Of a DNA stretch of 64,000 nt, positions 17,534 to 63,541 are shown piece after piece. Position numbers and translations under genes: made by a program. The number at the start of each line of letters is the position of its first letter. Position 1 is the first letter of the stretch. The DNA comes from Knoellia koreensis. GTDB lineage: Bacteria; Actinomycetota; Actinomycetes; Actinomycetales; Dermatophilaceae. A model generated the notes under the pieces. It worked only from the letters and a program-made list of their open reading frames with translations, was not told the origin of the DNA and did not search any database. Location of the stretch: assembly GCF_013041615.1 (NCBI RefSeq), contig NZ_JABEPQ010000004.1:1-64000 (forward strand), in the 5' to 3' direction.

Positions 17534-18304
17534 TCAGATCTTCTGCGGGACGACTTGGAAGTAGATGGCGCTGACGACGAAGTTGACGACGAACAGGAAC
17601 ATGAACGTGATGACCACGCTCTGGTTCACGGCGTCGCCGACACCCTTCGGGCCACCGCCGGCGGTGAGGCCCTTGTAGGACGCGACGACGGCGGCGATGA
17701 ACCCGAAGATGACCGCCTTGATCTCGGAGGTCCACAGGTCGGCCAGCTGCGCCAGGGCGGTGAAGGACGCGATGTACGCACCCGGTGTGCCGCCCTGGAT
17801 GATGACGTTGAAGAAGTAGCCACCCGCGACACCGACGACGGACACCAGGCCGTTGAGCAGCAACGAGACCACCATCGCGGCGAGCACGCGCGGCACGACG
17901 AGGCGCTGGATCGGGCTGATGCCGAGCACCTCCATCGCGTCGATCTCCTCGCGGATCTTGCGCGATCCGAGGTCGGCGCAGATGGCCGAGCCGCCGGCGC
18001 CAGCGATGAGCAGGGCGGTCACGATCGGCGACGCCTCACGGATGACGGCCAGCACCGAGGCGGCACCGGTGAACGACTGGGCACCGAGCTGGCGGGTCAG
18101 GGTGCCGAGCTGGAGCGCGATGACCGCACCGAACGGGATCGACACCAGCGCCGTCGGCACGATCGTGACCGAGGCGATGAACCAGCACTGCTGGATGAAC
18201 TCCTTGGTCTGGAACGGCCGCCGCGGCAGCGCCCGCATCGTGTCGAGGACGAGGGCGAAGAGGGAACCGGTCTGGCGCAGGGCACCGGTGACGGGGCTGG
18301 CCAT
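17534..18304 (-). CDS. Mce transporter permease YrbE-A (MlaE family)
   Basis: This 256-residue MlaE-family permease carries the conserved motif K-I-R-E-E-I-D-A-M-E-V-L-G-I, which contacts the ATPase, and about five membrane segments. It overlaps the ATPase gene upstream by one base (TGATG) and is followed 16 bp later by YrbE-B. ATPase, permease A, permease B, then MceA-F is the canonical order of actinobacterial Mce systems. Confidence 0.9.
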   Translation of the reverse strand: MASPVTGALRQTGSLFALVLDTMRALPRRPFQTKEFIQQCWFIASVTIVPTALVSIPFGAVIALQLGTLTRQLGAQSFTGAASVLAVIREASPIVTALLIAGAGGSAICADLGSRKIREEIDAMEVLGISPIQRLVVPRVLAAMVVSLLLNGLVSVVGVAGGYFFNVIIQGGTPGAYIASFTALAQLADLWTSEIKAVIFGFIAAVVASYKGLTAGGGPKGVGDAVNQSVVITFMFLFVVNFVVSAIYFQVVPQKI

Positions 18305-27221: not shown

Positions 27222-27282
27222 GATCGTCTTCTCCCTGGAGGTATGCCGCGCCGCCGGGTCGACGTCACGGGTCCTGCTTGCG

Positions 27283-27355
27283 CAGGGCAGGAGGGACTCG
27301 AACCCCCAACCGCCGGTTTTGGAGACCGGTGCTCTACCAATTGAGCCACTGCCCT
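27283..27355 (-). tRNA. tRNA-Trp (anticodon CCA)
   Basis: A complete 73-nt cloverleaf reads on the minus strand: acceptor AGGGCAG/CTGCCCT, D-arm GCTC/GAGC, anticodon arm CCGGT with loop CTCCAAA, and T-arm GGGGG-TTCGAAC-CCCTC. The CCA tail is not encoded. Its position just upstream of secE is conserved in actinobacteria. Confidence 0.97.
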
Positions 27356-33636: not shown

Positions 33637-33770
33637 GGGGCAACCTGCTCTCGAAACTGACGGGTGGAACTGCTGAGACTGTGAGCCCGTGCTCGGGGTC
33701 GGAGCGACCCGCAGCACGCGGCGACACGTCAGGATACGCGACCGCAGGGAGATTCCTGAAATCGCTGTCG

Positions 33771-33844
33771 TAGCGGGAGCGGGGCTCGATCCCGCGACCT
33801 CACGATTATGAGTCGTGCGCTCTAACCAGCTGAGCTATCCCGCC
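33771..33844 (-). tRNA. tRNA-Met, elongator type (anticodon CAT)
   Basis: This is a 74-nt cloverleaf on the minus strand: acceptor GGCGGGA/TCCCGCT with a G-U first pair, D-arm AGCTC/GAGC, anticodon loop CTCATAA, and T-arm GCGGG-ATCGAGC-CCCGC. CCA is not encoded. The paired first acceptor base argues against initiator tRNA. Confidence 0.95.
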
Positions 33845-33876
33845 GTGGGGAACGGCGCTCGGTGACGCCGACCCAG

Positions 33877-33949
33877 AGCCCCCTGTCGGAATCGAACCGA
33901 CGACCTTTTCCTTACCATGGAAACGCTCTGCCGACTGAGCTAAGGGGGC
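33877..33949 (-). tRNA. tRNA-Thr (anticodon GGT)
   Basis: This is a 73-nt cloverleaf: acceptor GCCCCCT/AGGGGGC, D-arm GCTC/GAGC, anticodon stem TTTCC/GGAAA with loop ATGGTAA, and T-arm GTCGG-TTCGATT-CCGAC. CCA is not encoded. It lies 32 bp upstream of tRNA-Met and is probably co-transcribed with it and rpmG. Confidence 0.96.
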
Positions 33950-55206: not shown

Positions 55207-57360
55207 TCACTCGCTACGTCGCGGTCGGCGCAGCGAGGCTGCCACGGCGCTCAGGATGCCTCCGAGCACGACCAGAGCCGCACCCCACGCCAGGGCGGCC
55301 GTCGACCCGGCGCCGGTGTGGGCCAGGGCCGAAGGTCCCTGGTTCGCGGCGGCGGCCGATCCCCATGCCCCGTAGGGCGATCCGTCACCCGAACCGGCGC
55401 CGGCTCCGCGGCGCGCCCCGTCAGCGGTCGACCAGTCCGTCCGCGTGTCCAGCCGGTAGGGGCCGGACAGCACGTCGGCACCGTCCGGAGCCGTGCCGCG
55501 GGACGTCGCCACGTTGCGCACCCGTCCCCGGTCGATGTCGGCCTGCGTCACCGTGTACCAGGGAGCAACGCAGGTCATGGTCTCGCCGGGCGCCAGGACT
55601 GTGCTCGGGCAGGTGGCGGAGAGCCCCAGCAGCGCGAGGGCCGGGTCCTCGACCGAGACCTCGGTCAGGGTGACGAGACCGGTGTTGCGCACGGTGAACC
55701 GGTACTCGATGCGTTCCCCCGCGTCGGCCAGCTGGTCGCCGTCCTTCTCCTGCAGGACCACCCACTTGGTGATCGAGATCCCCTTGCGCCACACCGTTTC
55801 CGTGCGGATCTTGGAGGGCTTCGAGACCACCGTGACGTCGTTCGGGGCCACGGCTGAGGCGGTGGCGCGGTTGGCGACGACCCCGGCGTCGACGTCGGCC
55901 TGCGTCACGGCATACCGGCTCGAGGTGCACGTCATCGACGCCCCCGCCGCCAGCGTCGTCGACGGGCAGGTGACCGTCACCTCCGGCCCGGCCGGCGCGG
56001 CGAGGGCGTCGTGGACCGCCACCCCGGTGAGCCGCACCGGCCCGGTGTTGCGCACCACGTACCGGTAGGTCAGCTGGTCGCCGACGCCCGGCAACCCGTC
56101 CGCGTCGTGGTCCAGCACCAGGTCGGCTGAGGTGCCAAGGGTGACCGAGGGCGCGCCGACGGTCAGGGTCGCAGCAGCCGGCGGGACGAGTCCGGCGACG
56201 TCGTGCACCCCGCTCCCCGGGGCGTTGGTGTAGCGCCCGGACGCGGCAGCGACGACGTCGACCGAGATCGTGCACGACCGCTGCCCCTCGTCGATCGTGC
56301 CCTGCACCTGCAGCTCCTCAGAGCCGGGCCTCGCACCGATGGTGGTCGTGTCCTCACAGGTGTTCCGGAGACCGGGGTTCGGTGCCACCACCAGGCCCGG
56401 CGGCAGGGTGTCCACGAAGGACCAGCCCCGCTTCTCCGCAAGCTCGCTGGTGTTGGTGACGGTGAACGTCAGCCTCGAGGTCTCGCCGGGCGCCACGACG
56501 TCGGGGGTGAACGACGTGGTCAGCCGTGGCGTGACGTCGAGCAGCCGGAGGTTGTCGAATGCCGTGTCGTTGCCCATGCCCGAACCGTTGGCGTTGCGGA
56601 CGACGAGGCCGGCCGTGGCGGCGTCGAGCAGAACCGCCGGCGTCGTGTGGCTCGCGACCCGGACGTCGGCCTCGGACGCCCCCGAACCCGGCGGCGCGGG
56701 GACCACGACGGTGCCGCCGCTCCCGCAGGAGTCGAGCGCCGGACCGAGCGGCACCTCAGCGCCACCGCCGGGCGCGACGAAGACGCGCAGCCGCGCGCCC
56801 CCGAACTCACAGTTCACCGACGCCGTGTCGACCCGCGCCGCGAGGAACCGGCTCGTGGCCGGGCCACCGAGCGCCACCGGTCGCACCGTCGCCAGCTCGA
56901 CCCGCCCCGCGCCGGGGTCCTCGCCGTCGGTGTAGCTCGCGAGCGCGTGGTTGGTCCGGGCGCCCTGCCCGCCGAGCGGCGCAAGCGCGCGCGCCATCTG
57001 GCGGATCCGGCTGTAGGCGAACTCGTTGGTCGCGACCTGGCGCGTGCAGTCGGCCGCCTCGCGGGCCGTCTGCGGCGCGCTCCACGAGAGCACCACCCCG
57101 TTGCAGGCGCGCAACCAGGCCGGGTCCGCGGCATACGCCGTCCCCGTGGCGCCCCGGTAGGAGTCGAGGAGCACGGGCTGGTCACCCACACCGTTCTCGA
57201 AGTCCTCGTCGAGCACCACGCGGGGGTCACTCGGGCCGGCCACGGCAGCGAGGGCAGGCTGCGGGGACGCGGCCCGCGCGCCGGGTGCGGCGGCGAGCAG
57301 CACGGCGGTGACCAGTCCCGTCGCCAGCGCGACGCTGGCGGACAGCGCGCGACAACGCAT
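55207..57360 (-). CDS. secreted DUF11/DUF7507-repeat surface protein with LAHTG sorting signal
   Basis: This 717-residue exported protein has an N-terminal signal peptide (about 1-28), then a unique domain of about 220 residues. Three beta-sandwich repeats of the DUF11/DUF7507 type follow, marked by L-T-Y-R-Y-V-V-R-N-T-G, T-C-P-S-T-T-L and Y-A-V-T-Q-A-D-V-D. The C-terminus is L-A-H-T-G (679-683), a hydrophobic helix and R-R-P-R-R, the layout recognised by class E sortases. It is therefore probably linked to peptidoglycan as a stalk or adhesin. I used ATG 57360; a GTG at 57387 is possible. It is divergent from the sigma-factor operon. The GTCA-N16-CGTCTC element is not seen on its own strand. 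Confidence 0.88.
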   Translation of the reverse strand: MRCRALSASVALATGLVTAVLLAAAPGARAASPQPALAAVAGPSDPRVVLDEDFENGVGDQPVLLDSYRGATGTAYAADPAWLRACNGVVLSWSAPQTAREAADCTRQVATNEFAYSRIRQMARALAPLGGQGARTNHALASYTDGEDPGAGRVELATVRPVALGGPATSRFLAARVDTASVNCEFGGARLRVFVAPGGGAEVPLGPALDSCGSGGTVVVPAPPGSGASEADVRVASHTTPAVLLDAATAGLVVRNANGSGMGNDTAFDNLRLLDVTPRLTTSFTPDVVAPGETSRLTFTVTNTSELAEKRGWSFVDTLPPGLVVAPNPGLRNTCEDTTTIGARPGSEELQVQGTIDEGQRSCTISVDVVAAASGRYTNAPGSGVHDVAGLVPPAAATLTVGAPSVTLGTSADLVLDHDADGLPGVGDQLTYRYVVRNTGPVRLTGVAVHDALAAPAGPEVTVTCPSTTLAAGASMTCTSSRYAVTQADVDAGVVANRATASAVAPNDVTVVSKPSKIRTETVWRKGISITKWVVLQEKDGDQLADAGERIEYRFTVRNTGLVTLTEVSVEDPALALLGLSATCPSTVLAPGETMTCVAPWYTVTQADIDRGRVRNVATSRGTAPDGADVLSGPYRLDTRTDWSTADGARRGAGAGSGDGSPYGAWGSAAAANQGPSALAHTGAGSTAALAWGAALVVLGGILSAVAASLRRPRRSE

Positions 57361-57533
57361 CGTTCCCTGCAATGGATTCCTCGTCACTGACACGGCGTCC
57401 ACGGTCCCGTCACCGCGGCGCCACCCGGGCGCTCGGGTCGAGCCGACGGCGCCAAGGCGTCCGGTCAGTGAACCATCGCCCGCGTCGGCGGGCAATGGGA
57501 CCGGGGTCGCGTTTATCTTGTCCCGACACGCGC

Positions 57534-57563
57534 GTCACGGTTTGGCCGTTCACCCGTCTCACC
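57534..57563 (+). promoter_or_regulatory. ECF-type promoter element 1, upstream of the sigma operon
   Basis: GTCAC (57534-57538) and CGTCTC (57555-57560) are 16 nt apart and followed by ACC. The same arrangement recurs at 59631 and 61225. CGTC-type -10 boxes are typical of ECF sigma factors. Transcription would start near 57568, 28 nt before the first gene of the operon. Confidence 0.6.
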
Positions 57564-57595
57564 CTCAGGACGACCAACCACGAAGGACCCACGGA

Positions 57596-58030
57596 ATGAC
57601 GATGAACGCAGCCGATGGGCACGGCGACCTGCCCGGCGACCTGCTCTACCGCTTGGAAGTTGCCGAGCTGTCACGCCCGCACATCGTCGTCACCCGCGAC
57701 CGCCGCACGGGGCGCGAGTCGTTCTCCGGGCCCTACCCGAGCGCGGTGGGGGCGCTGTGCGCGGCCGAGACCGAGTACCAGGTCGACCGCGACGGCGGCG
57801 GCCTCGGCGAGCTCACCTTCCACGTGGCCGCGCTCTACCCGCCCCTCGAGGGTGCGGACTGCGGTGGCGCCAGCCAGGCGTCCGCAGCCGGTCGCCACCG
57901 TGGGCGCGCCACCGTGGCGAGCCGCTTCGCGGGCTCGGTGGCGTATGCCGCGCGGCGGCTGCGTGCGCGGGTGGCGCCCGCGGTGGGAGGCACCGTCGGC
58001 CTGGTTCGTCGTTCCCGGCGGGTGTCGTGA
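57596..58030 (+). CDS. small protein of unknown function coupled to the ECF sigma gene
   Basis: I do not recognise this 144-residue protein. It reads from ATG 57596 behind GAAGGA. The first half (L-Y-R-L-E-V-A-E-L-S-R-P-H-I-V-V-T-R-D) looks like a small folded domain and the last 45 residues are Arg/Ala-rich. It has no signal peptide or membrane helix. Its stop overlaps the sigma-factor start by GTGA, so the two proteins are made together. A regulatory partner of the sigma factor is a reasonable guess and no more. One octamer lies near the 3' end (57943-57950). Confidence 0.7.
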   Translation: MTMNAADGHGDLPGDLLYRLEVAELSRPHIVVTRDRRTGRESFSGPYPSAVGALCAAETEYQVDRDGGGLGELTFHVAALYPPLEGADCGGASQASAAGRHRGRATVASRFAGSVAYAARRLRARVAPAVGGTVGLVRRSRRVS

Positions 58031-59553
58031 GGCTCAGCGACGACCGCACCGATCTGCAGCTGGTCGAGGCTGCTCGCGAAGGGCACAAGGATGCCGTCGT
58101 CGAGCTGTGGCAGCGGCACTACGCCGCGACCCTGTCCGCTGCCCGCCGCGTCGCCCGCCAGCCCCGCGACGCCGAGGAGCTCGCCTCGGACGCCTTCTCC
58201 CGCATGTTGTCGGCGATGTCGACCGGTGGAGGCCCGACGGCCTCGGTCCGCGCCTACCTCGCCACCTCGGTGCGCAACCTGGCCGTGTCACGCATCCGGC
58301 ACTCGTCCGCAGGTGAGGTCCTCACCGACGACGACGGCACCCTGGAGCGGCTCGCCGCCGACGGCAGCGACCCGGTCGCCCGGCACGGTGAGCTGGGCAT
58401 CATGCGCGAGGCCTTCGCCGCCCTGCCCAAGCGCTGGCAGGTGGTGCTGTGGCGCACCGCGGTCGACCAGGACAGCAACATCGCCGTCGCCGAGGAGCTG
58501 GGCCTGTCCCCCAACGCCGTCGCGGCGCTGACGCGACGCGCGCGCAAGGGGCTGCGCACGGCATACCTGCAGGCGCACGTCTCCACCCGTGGCGTCGACG
58601 CCGCCTGCGCACCGCACGTGGCGCTGCTCGCCGACCTGGCTGTGGGCCAGGCGGTGCCTGCCGCGACGAGGTCCCACGTGGACGGCTGCGCCCGCTGCCA
58701 GGCTCGAGTGGCCGAGCTGACCGAGGTCGAGACGCGGCTCGCCGGTGTGCTGGCTCCAGCCATTCTCGGGCTTGCCAAGGGCACCCCGGTGGCCGCGGCA
58801 GCGACCACGGCCGGTGCGACCAGCGGCGCCGGGCAGGTGGCCGAGACCACCGCGCGCGTGGGCGCGTGGGGCTGGCGGGGCAAGGGCCTGCTCCTGGGCG
58901 CGGCCGTGGCCGCGGTGGCCGCGACGGTGTGGGCACTCGGCCAGGGGGACGAGCCCAAGGTCGCCCCTCCGGAGGTCCTGCCCGCCACGACCACGACGAG
59001 CCAGACCTCGACACCGACCACCGCTGCCACGACCGTTCCACCGACCCGCACCACGACCACCACCCCGGCCAGGGCCACGACGACGCTGCCGGCCCCTCCC
59101 ACCACGCCGAGTCTCACGCCGCCGACCAGCACCGCGGCGCGCTCCACGCGTCCGGCCCCGCCGGCGCCGAGCCCGCGCACCACTGCGCCACCCAGCACCA
59201 CCTCGGTCGCGATGACACCGCTGGTGGCCGAGCTGTCGGTGACCGGTGACCGGCGGGAGACCATGATCGACCTGCGGGCCGAGGTCAGGGGAACGCGCGG
59301 CCCGCTCACCGCACAGCTGACGGTGCCGAGCGGTGTGCGGTACGGCGGGTCGTCCGGTGCGTGGGGCGGGTGCCGCCAGACCGGCACGACGGTGACCTGC
59401 ACCGGCGCCCACCAAGAGTCCGGGGTGTGGTCCGGCTCGATCCGGGTCGCCTGGCCGCCCGGGACGTCCGGGCGGATCGTGGCCGAGGTCAGCGGCACGT
59501 ACGCCAACGGCAGCCCGGCACGCGGCTCGGTCGGCACCACCTGGAGCGAGTGA
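58027..59553 (+). CDS. ECF sigma factor fused to zinc-finger anti-sigma, membrane helix and extracellular domain
   Basis: This 508-residue composite regulator has sigma region 2 (about 8-75: D-A-V-V-E-L-W-Q-R-H-Y ... D-A-E-E-L-A-S-D-A-F) and region 4 (about 115-170: L-P-K-R-W-Q-V-V-L-W-R ... A-E-E-L-G-L-S-P-N-A-V) at the N-terminus. A zinc anti-sigma motif, His217-x3-Cys221-x2-Cys224, follows. One transmembrane helix spans about 286-304. A Thr/Pro-rich extracellular spacer reaches about 395. The final 110 residues form a beta-rich domain with one Cys pair (G-C-R-Q-T-G-T-T-V-T-C), reminiscent of DUF11 folds. Release of the sigma part by proteolysis is the likely activation route. It starts at GTG 58027, coupled to the upstream gene. 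Confidence 0.9.
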   Translation: MRLSDDRTDLQLVEAAREGHKDAVVELWQRHYAATLSAARRVARQPRDAEELASDAFSRMLSAMSTGGGPTASVRAYLATSVRNLAVSRIRHSSAGEVLTDDDGTLERLAADGSDPVARHGELGIMREAFAALPKRWQVVLWRTAVDQDSNIAVAEELGLSPNAVAALTRRARKGLRTAYLQAHVSTRGVDAACAPHVALLADLAVGQAVPAATRSHVDGCARCQARVAELTEVETRLAGVLAPAILGLAKGTPVAAAATTAGATSGAGQVAETTARVGAWGWRGKGLLLGAAVAAVAATVWALGQGDEPKVAPPEVLPATTTTSQTSTPTTAATTVPPTRTTTTTPARATTTLPAPPTTPSLTPPTSTAARSTRPAPPAPSPRTTAPPSTTSVAMTPLVAELSVTGDRRETMIDLRAEVRGTRGPLTAQLTVPSGVRYGGSSGAWGGCRQTGTTVTCTGAHQESGVWSGSIRVAWPPGTSGRIVAEVSGTYANGSPARGSVGTTWSE

Positions 59554-59604
59554 GCCGGCTCCGGGGCTGCCTGATCCACGACGCCGGCGCTGCCGACGTT
59601 GGGA

Positions 59605-59620
59605 AAGTTTCAAGAAACTT
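59605..59620 (+). promoter_or_regulatory. small AT-rich inverted repeat before the adhesin promoter
   Basis: AAGTTTC (59605-59611) and GAAACTT (59614-59620) form a perfect 7-bp inverted repeat with a 2-nt gap, 52 bp past the sigma stop and 11 bp before promoter element 2. It is conspicuously AT-rich for this genome. It could be an operator or a weak terminator. Confidence 0.4.
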
Positions 59621-59630
59621 CCTGCGGCGC

Positions 59631-59660
59631 GTCATGATCCGGTCAGCCGTGCGTCTCTCC
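59631..59660 (+). promoter_or_regulatory. ECF-type promoter element 2, upstream of the adhesin gene
   Basis: GTCAT (59631-59635) and CGTCTC (59652-59657) are again 16 nt apart and followed by TCC. Transcription would start near 59665, so the adhesin start at GTG 59711, rather than the earlier ATG at 59663, would be used. Confidence 0.55.
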
Positions 59661-59710
59661 CAGTGACAACCCACCGACGGGGGTGGGTCCGACCAGGGGG
59701 TTTCTTCCTC

Positions 59711-61024
59711 GTGCACCACCAGTACGCCAAGCCAACCGTCCACGAGCACGCCACGCGGCGGTCGCGACTCGTCGTCGTGCTCGCGGCGCTCATGCTGGCC
59801 GCCATCGGCGGTCTCGTCGCCGCACCAGCCGCGTCGGCGGCGGTGATCCCCGGGGCGATCACCTCCATCTCCACGAAGTCGAGCAAGGTCGCGCAGTGGG
59901 ACCAGGTCGACTTCTCGTGCACCTGGGCCGTCCCGGACGGCTCCAAGCCGGGTGACACGTTCACGCTCCAGCTGCCCGACGAGCTCCGGTGGTCCGGGTC
60001 GAAGACCTTCGACCTGTTGTCACCGGACGGCGCCGTCGTCGCCAAGGCCGTCGTCAACGACTCCGGCTACGTCGTCTTCACGCTCACCGACTACGTGGCG
60101 ACCCATCCACTCGACGTCCACGGCACGTGCAACTTCACGACCCAGTACGCCGCGGTCACGACCGGCGGCACCGTCAACCTGAAGTTCGAGGTCAACGGGG
60201 AGGTCGTCACCGTTCCCGTGGGCACCGCGCCGCCGTGCCCCTCGGGGTGTGCGACCGACCGGTCCTGGGCGCAGAAGTGGATGTGGTGGTCCAACCCCGA
60301 GCAGACGGCCACGCGCTCGCTGCTGATGGCGCCGGCCACGACGACCGACGACGCCACCGTGGTCATCACGGACACCCCCGGACCGGGCCTCGACCTCGAC
60401 TGCACCACCGTCGAGGCCACCGTCGGCAAGAACCTCGACGGCAGCGGCATGATCACCGACCCGCGCGACGACGCGGCATACCCGGCCACGATCAGCTGCA
60501 CCCCCGACAAGGTGACCGTCACGTGGAAGGGCCTGCCGAAGGGCGAGTACACCGAGGTGCGGGTCAAGTCGGTCGTGACCGACCCCACGCAGGCCAGCTA
60601 CGAGAACGCCGGCACCATCTCGATCGCCGGCAAGGAGAGCCCGGTCTCGGCCGGGACCAAGCGCACCAACGCCGGCGGCACCGGCGTCGGCACCACCCCG
60701 GCTCCCACGACGAGCAGCCCCAGCTCGACCACGTCACCGTCGAAGACCTCGACCAGCAGCCCGTCCAGCACGACGTCGGAGACGACCGCGGTCGTGGGCG
60801 GCTCCGGCGATGAGAGCGGCGCCGCCACGGTCGAGGGGCGGTCGACGGCGGCGGCCGGGTCCTACGAGCAGGGGGCGTATGCCGAGAGCGCGCCTGCCGA
60901 GCAGAGCGGCCCGCTCGCGTACACCGGCGCCGCGGTGTGGCCCACCGTCGCGGCCGGGGTGGCCCTGCTGCTCGTGGGCGGCCTGCTGTTGCTGAGCCGT
61001 CGCCGAGTCGCACGCCGCCACTGA
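59711..61024 (+). CDS. MSCRAMM-like adhesin with LAYTG sorting signal
   Basis: This 437-residue cell-wall protein has a signal peptide of about 43 residues ending A-S-A. The next domain resembles the Ig-like adhesive domains of Gram-positive MSCRAMMs: W-D-Q-V-D-F-S-C-T-W, then G-D-T-F-T-L-Q-L-P-D-E-L, D-L-L-S-P-D-G-A-V-V-A-K-A and F-T-L-T-D-Y-V. A second beta-rich domain follows, then a Thr/Ser/Pro stalk, L-A-Y-T-G (402-406), a hydrophobic helix and a basic tail, the class E sortase pattern. I chose GTG 59711 because the predicted transcription start lies after the upstream ATG. It directly follows the tethered sigma gene. The ligand is unknown. Confidence 0.85.
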   Translation: MHHQYAKPTVHEHATRRSRLVVVLAALMLAAIGGLVAAPAASAAVIPGAITSISTKSSKVAQWDQVDFSCTWAVPDGSKPGDTFTLQLPDELRWSGSKTFDLLSPDGAVVAKAVVNDSGYVVFTLTDYVATHPLDVHGTCNFTTQYAAVTTGGTVNLKFEVNGEVVTVPVGTAPPCPSGCATDRSWAQKWMWWSNPEQTATRSLLMAPATTTDDATVVITDTPGPGLDLDCTTVEATVGKNLDGSGMITDPRDDAAYPATISCTPDKVTVTWKGLPKGEYTEVRVKSVVTDPTQASYENAGTISIAGKESPVSAGTKRTNAGGTGVGTTPAPTTSSPSSTTSPSKTSTSSPSSTTSETTAVVGGSGDESGAATVEGRSTAAAGSYEQGAYAESAPAEQSGPLAYTGAAVWPTVAAGVALLLVGGLLLLSRRRVARRH

Positions 61025-61029
61025 GGCCA

Positions 61030-61061
61030 GGCTGCCCGCCTCGGGCGTGAGGCGGGCAGCC
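61030..61061 (+). terminator. terminator of the adhesin gene
   Basis: GGCTGCCCGCCTC (61030-61042) and GAGGCGGGCAGCC (61049-61061) form a perfect 13-bp stem with a 6-nt loop, 5 bp past the stop. Confidence 0.8.
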
Positions 61062-61224
61062 AACTCCGGTGACGCTCGGCGCCACCGGAGGAAAACAACT
61101 GAATACTCGCGGGCCGGCGCCCGGGGCGGTGACCCATCAGGGAAGGTCACGAGCGCCGCGCCGGTCCGCGCAGGACGCCTGGTGGGACGCCGGAGGATTC
61201 CCGCGGAAAAAGTGTCATGGTGCC

Positions 61225-61254
61225 GTCACATTTCGCGGGTTCGCGCGTCTCACC
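61225..61254 (+). promoter_or_regulatory. ECF-type promoter element 3
   Basis: GTCAC (61225-61229) and CGTCTC (61246-61251) are 16 nt apart and followed by ACC. Compared with element 1, about 20 of 30 positions match. It would drive the small gene at 61373 through a leader of about 110 nt. Confidence 0.6.
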
Positions 61255-61372: not shown

Positions 61373-61828
61373 ATGGTCAAGCGCAGACGCAGGTGGCAGG
61401 TGGCGCCGGTGACCGCCACTGGCGACTCCGTGCCCGGAGGTGCGGGCCCGAGCTCGACAACGGCCGGCGACGACCGGACCCCGGCGGCTGCGCATCCCAG
61501 CGGCCCGGTGCAGCGCCTGTGGCTGCTGCTGGTGCAGCTCGACCGTGCGGTCTGGCGTTCGACGCCGTCCTTCCGTGAGGGGCGTGCAGCGGCGCGGTCC
61601 TGGGAGGACGCGGCCAAGCTGGTGCTGCAGGCGCAGATGGCGATCGGCGGGCTCACCCGCGACCTGCCCGCGCTGCCGGACGAGGAGGACCTGGCCGCGT
61701 CGCACCTGGTCGACAGCGCCCGTGACACCCTCGCCGAGGTCGACGAGCTCGAACCGCGCGGGTGGCCGCAGGCGCGCGAGCTCGTCGTCGAGGCGCTCGA
61801 TGCCAGCGAGGTGGTGACGACCGCGTGA
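61373..61828 (+). CDS. small protein of unknown function, possible ECF regulon member
   Basis: I do not recognise this 151-residue cytoplasmic protein. The N-terminus is basic (M-V-K-R-R-R-R-W), followed by a disordered stretch to about residue 45. The rest is helical (L-W-L-L-L-V-Q-L-D-R-A-V-W-R ... L-V-L-Q-A-Q-M-A-I-G-G-L). There is no signal peptide. Its interest lies in the promoter element it shares with the sigma operon and the adhesin. It ends at a shared terminator with the convergent ArsR-type gene. Confidence 0.7.
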   Translation: MVKRRRRWQVAPVTATGDSVPGGAGPSSTTAGDDRTPAAAHPSGPVQRLWLLLVQLDRAVWRSTPSFREGRAAARSWEDAAKLVLQAQMAIGGLTRDLPALPDEEDLAASHLVDSARDTLAEVDELEPRGWPQARELVVEALDASEVVTTA

Positions 61829-63450: not shown

Positions 63451-63460
63451 GTGCACGGGG

Positions 63461-63541
63461 TGGCGGGTGAAGGATTCGAACCTTCGTAGCTTTCGCGACG
63501 GATTTACAGTCCGCTCCCATTGGCCGCTCGGGCAACCCGCC
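63461..63541 (-). tRNA. tRNA-Tyr (anticodon GTA)
   Basis: This is an 81-nt type II tRNA with a long variable arm: acceptor GGCGGGT/ACCCGCC, anticodon arm GCGGA/TCCGT with loop CTGTAAA, and T-arm GAAGG-TTCGAAT-CCTTC. CCA is not encoded. It is transcribed away from the yajQ-family gene. Confidence 0.96.

Follow-up and report, generated by a model that had tools for sequence, protein, structure and literature searches.

Gene organization of the locus

We analyzed a 64,000-nucleotide stretch of the Knoellia koreensis genome (GCF_013041615.1, contig NZ_JABEPQ010000004.1, positions 1-64,000), called here the window, for a gene that fuses an extracytoplasmic function (ECF) sigma factor to a membrane-tethered outer domain, together with the surface-protein genes around it and a promoter-like sequence found before several of them. 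The K. koreensis genome is labelled G000, other G numbers denote the genomes compared with it, and L numbers denote genomic loci fetched from genomes or plasmid records. The sigma gene occupies 58027-59553 of the + strand, and its translation is a stop-free chain of 508 amino acids, in agreement with the single-chain fusion reported in a preliminary description of this DNA. Sigma region 2 (residues ~27-93) and region 4 (~125-174) are followed by a zinc motif (C194/H217/C221/C224), one transmembrane helix (~285-305), a Thr/Pro spacer (~310-395), and an outer domain (~396-508). A frameshift separating the C-terminal part from the sigma domain had been named in advance as a finding that would speak against the fusion. 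We saw no sign of one, because GC content at third codon positions stays high across the whole frame, at 0.82-0.98 in every 50-codon block from the sigma domain through the outer domain.

The sigma domain matched Pfam Sigma70_r2 above the cut-off (E 9.8e-9) and Sigma70_r4_2 below its own (E 5.6e-4). It also matched the NCBIfam model TIGR02937 (sigma70-ECF) at 54.4 bits against a cut-off of 42.9, which identifies it as an ECF-type sigma factor with regions 2 and 4. In an alignment of 14 sequences the sigma domain retained its conserved residues, and the four zinc residues were unchanged in all 14. The Pfam profile zf-HC2 gave no match to the window protein at E≤1; among 15 scanned relatives it matched 8 above its cut-off and 2 below, and missed 5, including all three same-genus ones. 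A single hydropathy peak at residues 287-305 indicates one transmembrane helix, and the Thr/Pro-rich stretch that follows was judged by eye.

Close relatives of the fused sigma gene were present in 5 of 11 same-genus genomes, at seven loci (the window, L021, L022, L023, L024, L025, and L026; 93,297 bases in total), and a divergent fused sigma was present in a sixth genome, G004. A search of the K. koreensis genome with the whole 508-aa protein (E≤0.001) found no second fused sigma, and two same-genus genomes counted as lacking one, G006 and G010, gave weak sigma-domain matches only. The outer domain, about 110 residues long, was 37-43% identical in five same-genus homologues and was kept in all six intact close copies, the seventh (L026) being frameshifted. 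It looks beta-rich from its sequence; no Pfam match at E≤1 and no credible PDB relative were found for it. By eye it resembles the DUF11 repeats of neighboring proteins (W..C and TC), and homology to them was considered and rejected: an hhalign comparison of 12 outer domains with 5 repeats gave a probability of 0.5%, and Pfam DUF11 was detected in just 1 of the 12 members (E 0.013).

Frameshifts in the Ala/Pro-rich linker were seen in the fused sigma genes of L026 (8734-10515, genome G002), L083/L031 (G033), and L040 (Arthrobacter StoSoilB13), whose assembly is suspect because its adhesin is also split. According to the available part of one report, a Streptomyces clavuligerus homologue has a stop in its proline-rich region (PMC5826349). 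Programmed or phase-variable frameshifting in the linker was set aside as a candidate, sequencing error, decay, and slippage being indistinguishable in L026, L083/L031, and L040.

A small gene coupled to the sigma gene

Immediately upstream, a gene for a protein of 144 amino acids (57596-58030, + strand) overlaps the sigma gene by 4 bases, as expected from the coupling described earlier. The protein has a conserved core, PHIV...SGPY...LTFHVAALYP, and belongs to no known family: it gave no Pfam or NCBIfam match at E≤1 and no credible PDB relative. A profile search of the 11 same-genus genomes (alignment A3) found the family in G000, G002, G004, G007, G008, and G009, that is, in all six genomes with a fused sigma and in none of the five without. 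A fused sigma lay no more than 9 kb from ten of the 11 copies; the remaining copy (in G008, E 1.2e-4) was elsewhere. The small gene stands upstream of all six intact genus fused sigmas, either overlapping or no more than ~175 bases away, and is missing from L026. Outside the genus, neither a single-sequence search of 29 other genera of the taxonomic family nor a profile search of the fused-sigma loci fetched from other genera gave a match. The translational coupling suggests that the small protein is a partner of the sigma factor, and it may help to hold or free it.

Surface-protein genes beside the sigma gene

Downstream of the sigma gene, 59711-61024 (+ strand) encodes an adhesin-like surface protein (Big_8, E 1.1e-16) with an LAYTG motif, a hydrophobic stretch, and a basic tail. 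Its frame is open from 59663, and the GTG at 59711 is the likelier start because 59663 is only 5 bases behind the −10 box. The protein matched NCBIfam Microco_LAVTG just above the cut-off, and its homologues in L021 and L025 were 53% identical. On the other side, and divergent from the small gene, the − strand encodes a wall protein (55207-57495, likely start 57360) with DUF7933, DUF7507, and DUF11 repeats and an LAHTG sorting signal. Two sortases are encoded in the genome, and both neighbors, which the preliminary description had already assigned to the LAxTG type, have the motif, hydrophobic stretch, and basic tail of predicted sortase-anchored proteins. Beyond the adhesin gene, the third putative transcription unit is a gene at 61373-61828 (+ strand) for 151 amino acids from an ATG at 61373. 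It has a WLLLVQLDRAVWR core and no Pfam or NCBIfam match, and a partial homologue lies at L024:9002-9373 (tblastn, 43% over 51 aa, E 7.8e-6).

To judge this neighborhood we applied the sorting-signal detector to 20 control regions of 20 kb from the same genome. It found no sorting signals in these 400 kb, compared with two such genes within 4 kb at the locus, and the neighborhood is therefore not due to chance. Proteins with a sorting signal were present in the fetched region of 5 of the 7 genus loci (the window, L021, L022, L025, and L026), and Big_8 adhesins, DUF11 wall proteins, or both adjoin the fused sigma in 5 of 7. One VSGAG tail called at L023/L024 looks spurious. L026 adjoins a pilus cluster encoding SpaA-type pilins and two sortase-like proteins, of which one scored under the Pfam cut-off; the cluster (L026:11130-17715, G002) starts less than 1 kb from the frameshifted fused sigma and has a copy of the promoter-like sequence described below at its far upstream end (17688-17715). 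In G008, two consecutive genes for LAFTG proteins lie downstream of a fused sigma (L161:969 and 3315), one encoding a large DUF7507/DUF11 protein and the other a protein of up to 476 aa.

A promoter-like dyad precedes three units of the locus

The upstream regions of five sigma operons or surface genes of the genus contained a CGTCAC or CGTCAT box and a CGTCTC box 22 bases apart, from which the dyad pattern CGTCAY-N16-CGTCYH, of ECF promoter type, was derived. A first promoter idea formed by eye, a GGAAC- or GTTTA-type −35 box, had been dropped after the upstream regions were read. The window held exactly three dyads in 64 kb, all on the + strand and each preceding a gene of the locus: CGTCAC-N16-CGTCTC at 57533-57560, before the operon of the small gene and the sigma gene; CGTCAT-N16-CGTCTC at 59630-59657, before the adhesin gene; and CGTCAC-N16-CGTCTC at 61224-61251, before the third transcription unit. 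Their leave-one-locus-out scores with a weight matrix were 20.4, 15.9, and 20.4. The third site lies outside the upstream regions inspected when the pattern was found. Shuffling the window gave a mean of 0.43 dyads, and none of 100 shuffles reached three.

The whole K. koreensis genome contained 15 dyads, including the three in the window. Of the other 12, nine fell within called genes and a tenth within another open frame; only one of the 12, itself inside a ribosomal-protein gene, had a gene start within 350 bases behind it, as called by a simple gene caller. Because the dyad precedes the three units at the locus and most copies elsewhere lie inside genes, we predict a local regulon made up of the sigma operon and the two other units. 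In the 300 bases before the likely start of the divergent DUF11 wall gene there was no dyad (best score 4.4), and the gene was rejected as a direct target. Its counterparts in L021 and L026 are predicted dyad targets, and the one in L022 has an imperfect box.

Across the seven genus loci there were 22 dyads at a spacer of 16, compared with 2, 0, 0, 1, 2, 2, 0, 1, and 0 at spacers of 12-15 and 17-21, and up to 200 permuted box pairs gave a mean of 0.23 and a maximum of 3. The 400 kb taken elsewhere in the K. koreensis genome contained 2. In the leave-one-locus-out run, 14 of 17 upstream regions scored at least 11.4, compared with 2 of 176 control upstreams that reached 11. The three upstream regions of the 17 that failed precede the window DUF11 gene, the small gene of L027, and the first of the small genes in L022. 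The better of the two control matches (L071:2291) precedes a gene that adjoins a fused sigma and whose product has an LPVTG motif and an ice-binding-like adhesive domain. The homologue of the 61373 gene in L024 is also preceded by a dyad (L024:8870-8897).

Two further loci carry side observations. In L024 (11591-12868, G002), divergent from the small gene, a dyad stands before an operon that encodes an unfused ECF sigma and an IrrE-like protein, the latter matching Peptidase_M78 at E 7.5e-4, which is under the cut-off. The divergent fused sigma of G004 (C1:3202672-3212412; L027 and L115) lacks a recognizable outer domain, adjoins a WhiB gene, and has two small-family genes 5-9 kb off; neither L027 nor L115 contains a sorting-signal gene or a strict dyad. 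L115 and L116, fetched as extensions of two loci, held neither a sorting signal nor a dyad.

Fused sigma factors outside the genus

We extended the search in two directions. A tblastn search of 72,556 plasmid records with the sigma part matched 26 records, of which the six best were opened. Those covering at least 80% of the query numbered 16 and came from Streptomyces, Arthrobacter, Paenarthrobacter, and Nonomuraea, hence from Actinobacteria only, while the listed Agrobacterium matches had 50% query coverage. Among 39 genomes of the order, K. koreensis included, 12 matched at E≤1e-20, some through unfused sigmas only. A genome_contigs scan gave a single 26-residue match in a deltaproteobacterial metagenome-assembled genome, which is irrelevant here.

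Surface genes were again found beside several of these sigma genes. In Arthrobacter alpinus there are two fused sigma genes, both with a neighboring cluster for a SpaA-related pilin and a class C sortase, and in Paenarthrobacter OM7 the fused sigma is divergent from such a cluster. In Streptomyces NBC_00334 the gene is followed by one annotated as an LAETG sortase substrate (its tail reads LAATG), and in the unannotated and error-prone record of Arthrobacter StoSoilB13 it is divergent from a Big_8 adhesin gene. No surface-gene neighbor was found for the fused sigmas in the Streptomyces goshikiensis and Nonomuraea plasmid records. Among the order genomes, a sorting-signal gene lay within ~19 kb at 5 of 12 fetched fused-sigma loci, compared with 1 of 20 control regions from the same nine genomes, and that one looks spurious. 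With a Big_8 profile, adhesins were detected at 5 of the 33 fused-sigma loci, compared with none of 40 control regions, although four of the five had also been used to build the profile. One of the five, at L073 from another family, was recognized by Pfam and directly follows its sigma gene.

The link between fused sigmas and surface genes thus recurs but is not universal. Outside the genus, sorting signals were found at L041, L042, L044, L066, L067, L069, L071, and L073, and at L040 by reading. A universal link was rejected, as 16 loci outside the genus had none: L043, L045, L064, L065, L068, L070, and L074-L083 (L077 spans just 3.7 kb; the VACTG tail called at L079 belongs to the C-terminus of the fused sigma). 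The preliminary description was to be abandoned if related genomes consistently yielded homologues without the outer domain or without surface genes. This was not seen in the close homologues; among distant ones, the surface genes are often absent. The outer domains of relatives were assigned to NPCBM, ricin-B, Big_6 (below cut-off), or DUF11, and some had no Pfam assignment; this variety suggests that each fused sigma senses its own ligand.

The dyad also preceded fused sigmas of other genera and families, at L070 and L078 and in weaker form at L068, L079, L081, and L082 (at L078, L079, L081, and L082 it sits 250-285 bases before guessed starts). Among 31 further sigma upstreams, 7 scored at least 11 with the genus matrix, one of them (L029) belonging to an unfused sigma. 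In StoSoilB13 the sigma gene and the Big_8 adhesin gene have a variant in common, CGTCAY-N16-CCACTC. A gene for ~230-260 aa is divergent from the fused sigma at L064:10252-11022, L066:8194-8982, L067:10183-10974, and L043:6200-6889, across three families and as far as Nonomuraea. By eye these genes form one family, those in L064, L067, and L043 had no Pfam match, and in L064 and L043 the gene has the same promoter dyad.

Relation to known ECF groups

The fused architecture has already been published, for groups ECF52, ECF48, and ECF53 (PMC5826349, PMC8999054), and the claim that sigma/anti-sigma fusions are known among actinobacterial ECFs holds for ECF52 in particular. In the available sections of these papers, SCO4117 of Streptomyces coelicolor, an ECF52 protein, combines a sigma domain, zinc anti-sigma motif, transmembrane helix, Pro/Thr spacer, and outer domain in one chain, as the window protein does. 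The same sources take the fused zinc modules to be anti-sigma factors, propose autoregulation and proteolytic release for ECF52, and describe SCO4117 as pleiotropic, with a disputed promoter and an unknown signal (PMC5826349, PMC8999054). The window protein differs in its outer domain, in which no carbohydrate-binding domain was detected, and in having a predicted local surface regulon where SCO4117 is pleiotropic. A relative with the domains of SCO4117, in G098 (L163), matched NPCBM at E 2.9e-27 by the same Pfam method as was used for the window protein. In a tree of 46 sigma domains, the window clade (seven genus rows and G033; support 100/100) lies apart from the clade of this NPCBM protein and the ricin-B proteins (98/96). 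We predict that the window protein works like an ECF52 factor; we do not file it in that group, because the carbohydrate-binding domain was not found and its clade stands apart in the tree.

Other systems resemble it in part. ECF41 sigma factors have a soluble SnoaL-like C-terminal domain and no membrane helix. In SigI/RsgI of Clostridium thermocellum, an outer sensor is coupled to a sigma factor for surface-related genes, and RsgI is a separate anti-sigma protein that senses polysaccharides. For ECF41, the available text describes a tested promoter, TGTCACA-n16-CGTC, which is built like the dyad and stands before both the sigma gene and a neighboring target, and hence a local regulon as predicted here; that target is a COE gene (PMC3426412). 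ECF53 and ECF48, which we compared by architecture alone, are alike in having a fused zinc anti-sigma module and transmembrane helices, and IutY likewise couples an outer sensor to a sigma factor driving surface-related genes but is Gram-negative and siderophore-responsive (PMC8999054). A regulon of surface genes under a fused sigma was not found in the open-access literature searched, though the main ECF classification papers may mention one.

Proposed mechanism and alternatives

We think it probable that the locus encodes an ECF sigma factor that is tethered to the membrane, carries an anti-sigma module and an outer sensor in the same chain, reads the dyad, and drives its own operon, the Big_8 adhesin gene, and the gene for the 151-aa protein. 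In the resting state, the sigma domain would be held inactive by the membrane tether and the fused zinc module. A signal at the outer domain would free it, probably by regulated proteolysis, and the freed sigma would recognize CGTCAY-N16-CGTCYH. It would then turn on its own operon, small partner included, in a positive feedback, and would turn on the genes for the LAYTG adhesin and the 151-residue protein, leading to adhesin display. The locus would be a dedicated local switch for surface adhesion and not a global regulator. Such a system is compact, with the sigma factor, its likely promoter, a client adhesin, and a partner protein within ~4.3 kb. If this reading is right, the locus also offers a candidate sigma/promoter pair; the available text names one studied ECF52 member (PMC5826349, PMC8999054).

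Several observations weigh against this reading. The spacer count is partly circular, since the dyad was originally noticed at some of the loci counted and the matrix was trained on 15 of the 22 copies; independent evidence comes from the leave-one-locus-out run, from the third site in the window, and from sites in other genera. Three genus dyads (L022:3752, L023:8442, and L024:9468) have no convincing gene behind them, in two of the seven genus loci (L023 and L024) the 19 kb fetched contain no credible sortase substrate, and 24 of the 31 further sigma upstreams, whose start codons were guessed, scored below 11. Strict matches per genome number 11-22 in the six genomes with a fused sigma and 7-19 in the five without, and because these counts overlap, the pattern outside the sigma loci is mostly noise genome-wide. 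In addition, SCO4117, the one studied ECF52 factor, is pleiotropic, and its proposed motif, in the available account, differs from the dyad (PMC5826349). That pleiotropy would fit an ordinary ECF52-type regulator with a broad regulon, in which the adhesin is one of many targets and looser sites escape the strict pattern, and looser boxes do exist (AGTCTT at L023 and GCTCTC at L022). We nevertheless regard a broad regulon as unlikely, given that just one of the 12 further strict sites in K. koreensis has a called start close behind it and that the 22 sigma-locus sites make up most of the difference between the two sets of genomes.

The dyad could instead be read by another, unfused ECF sigma, the fused protein being a regulated surface receptor whose sigma role is lost or not yet used. 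Unfused ECF genes do occur with such sites: one in G007 (C4; L029:9006-9733) has a dyad 7 bases before its likely start, another lies within the dyad-bearing operon of L024, and a third, in K. koreensis itself (G000:C8, 216667-217194; sigma profile E 1.2e-21), has the near-match CGTCAC-N16-CGTCAT upstream. This near-match, together with an unfused ECF locus that has two sorting-signal genes near it (L072, G047), weakens the exclusiveness of the dyad to the fused sigma. Still, the K. koreensis gene has no strict dyad, the dyads of the genus cluster at fused sigmas, and the fused sigma domain keeps its conserved residues, so that an unfused reader seems to us very unlikely, and we infer that the fused sigma reads the dyad. 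A more ambitious proposal, made in the preliminary description, is a full surface-sensing circuit, in which the outer domain monitors the wall proteins and binding to or strain on them releases the sigma factor. The neighborhood it relied on is not accidental, as judged from the common dyad and from 5 of the 7 genus loci, and the recurrence of Big_8 adhesins at fused sigmas described above speaks for it; the lack of a dyad before the DUF11 gene of the window does not fit. The outer domain moreover shows no sequence relation to the wall-protein repeats, outer domains vary widely among relatives, which favors varied ligands, and two genus loci have no wall protein near. We hold the full circuit to be quite unlikely: that the sigma controls the adhesin appears better supported than that the adhesin signals to the sigma.

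More broadly, and only tentatively, fused ECF sigmas may be widespread actinobacterial self-amplifying switches for sortase-anchored adhesins and pili, each with CGTCA-N16-CGTC-type promoters before its own operon and neighboring surface genes, its own outer sensor, and, in this genus, a new and obligate partner family. The locus itself, if our reading of it is right, would show how actinobacteria can time the display of adhesins or pili on their walls, through a one-protein switch from the outside to the gene.

Additional observations

The unfused ECF of L029 is 44% identical to the window sigma domain, and cross-talk between the two is possible. The near-match upstream of the unfused K. koreensis gene on C8, at L162:8496-8523, lies in an apparent inverted repeat or hairpin. 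The window also contains ordinary genes for tRNA-Trp, tRNA-Met, tRNA-Thr, and tRNA-Tyr, at 27282-27355, 33770-33949, and 63459-63541.

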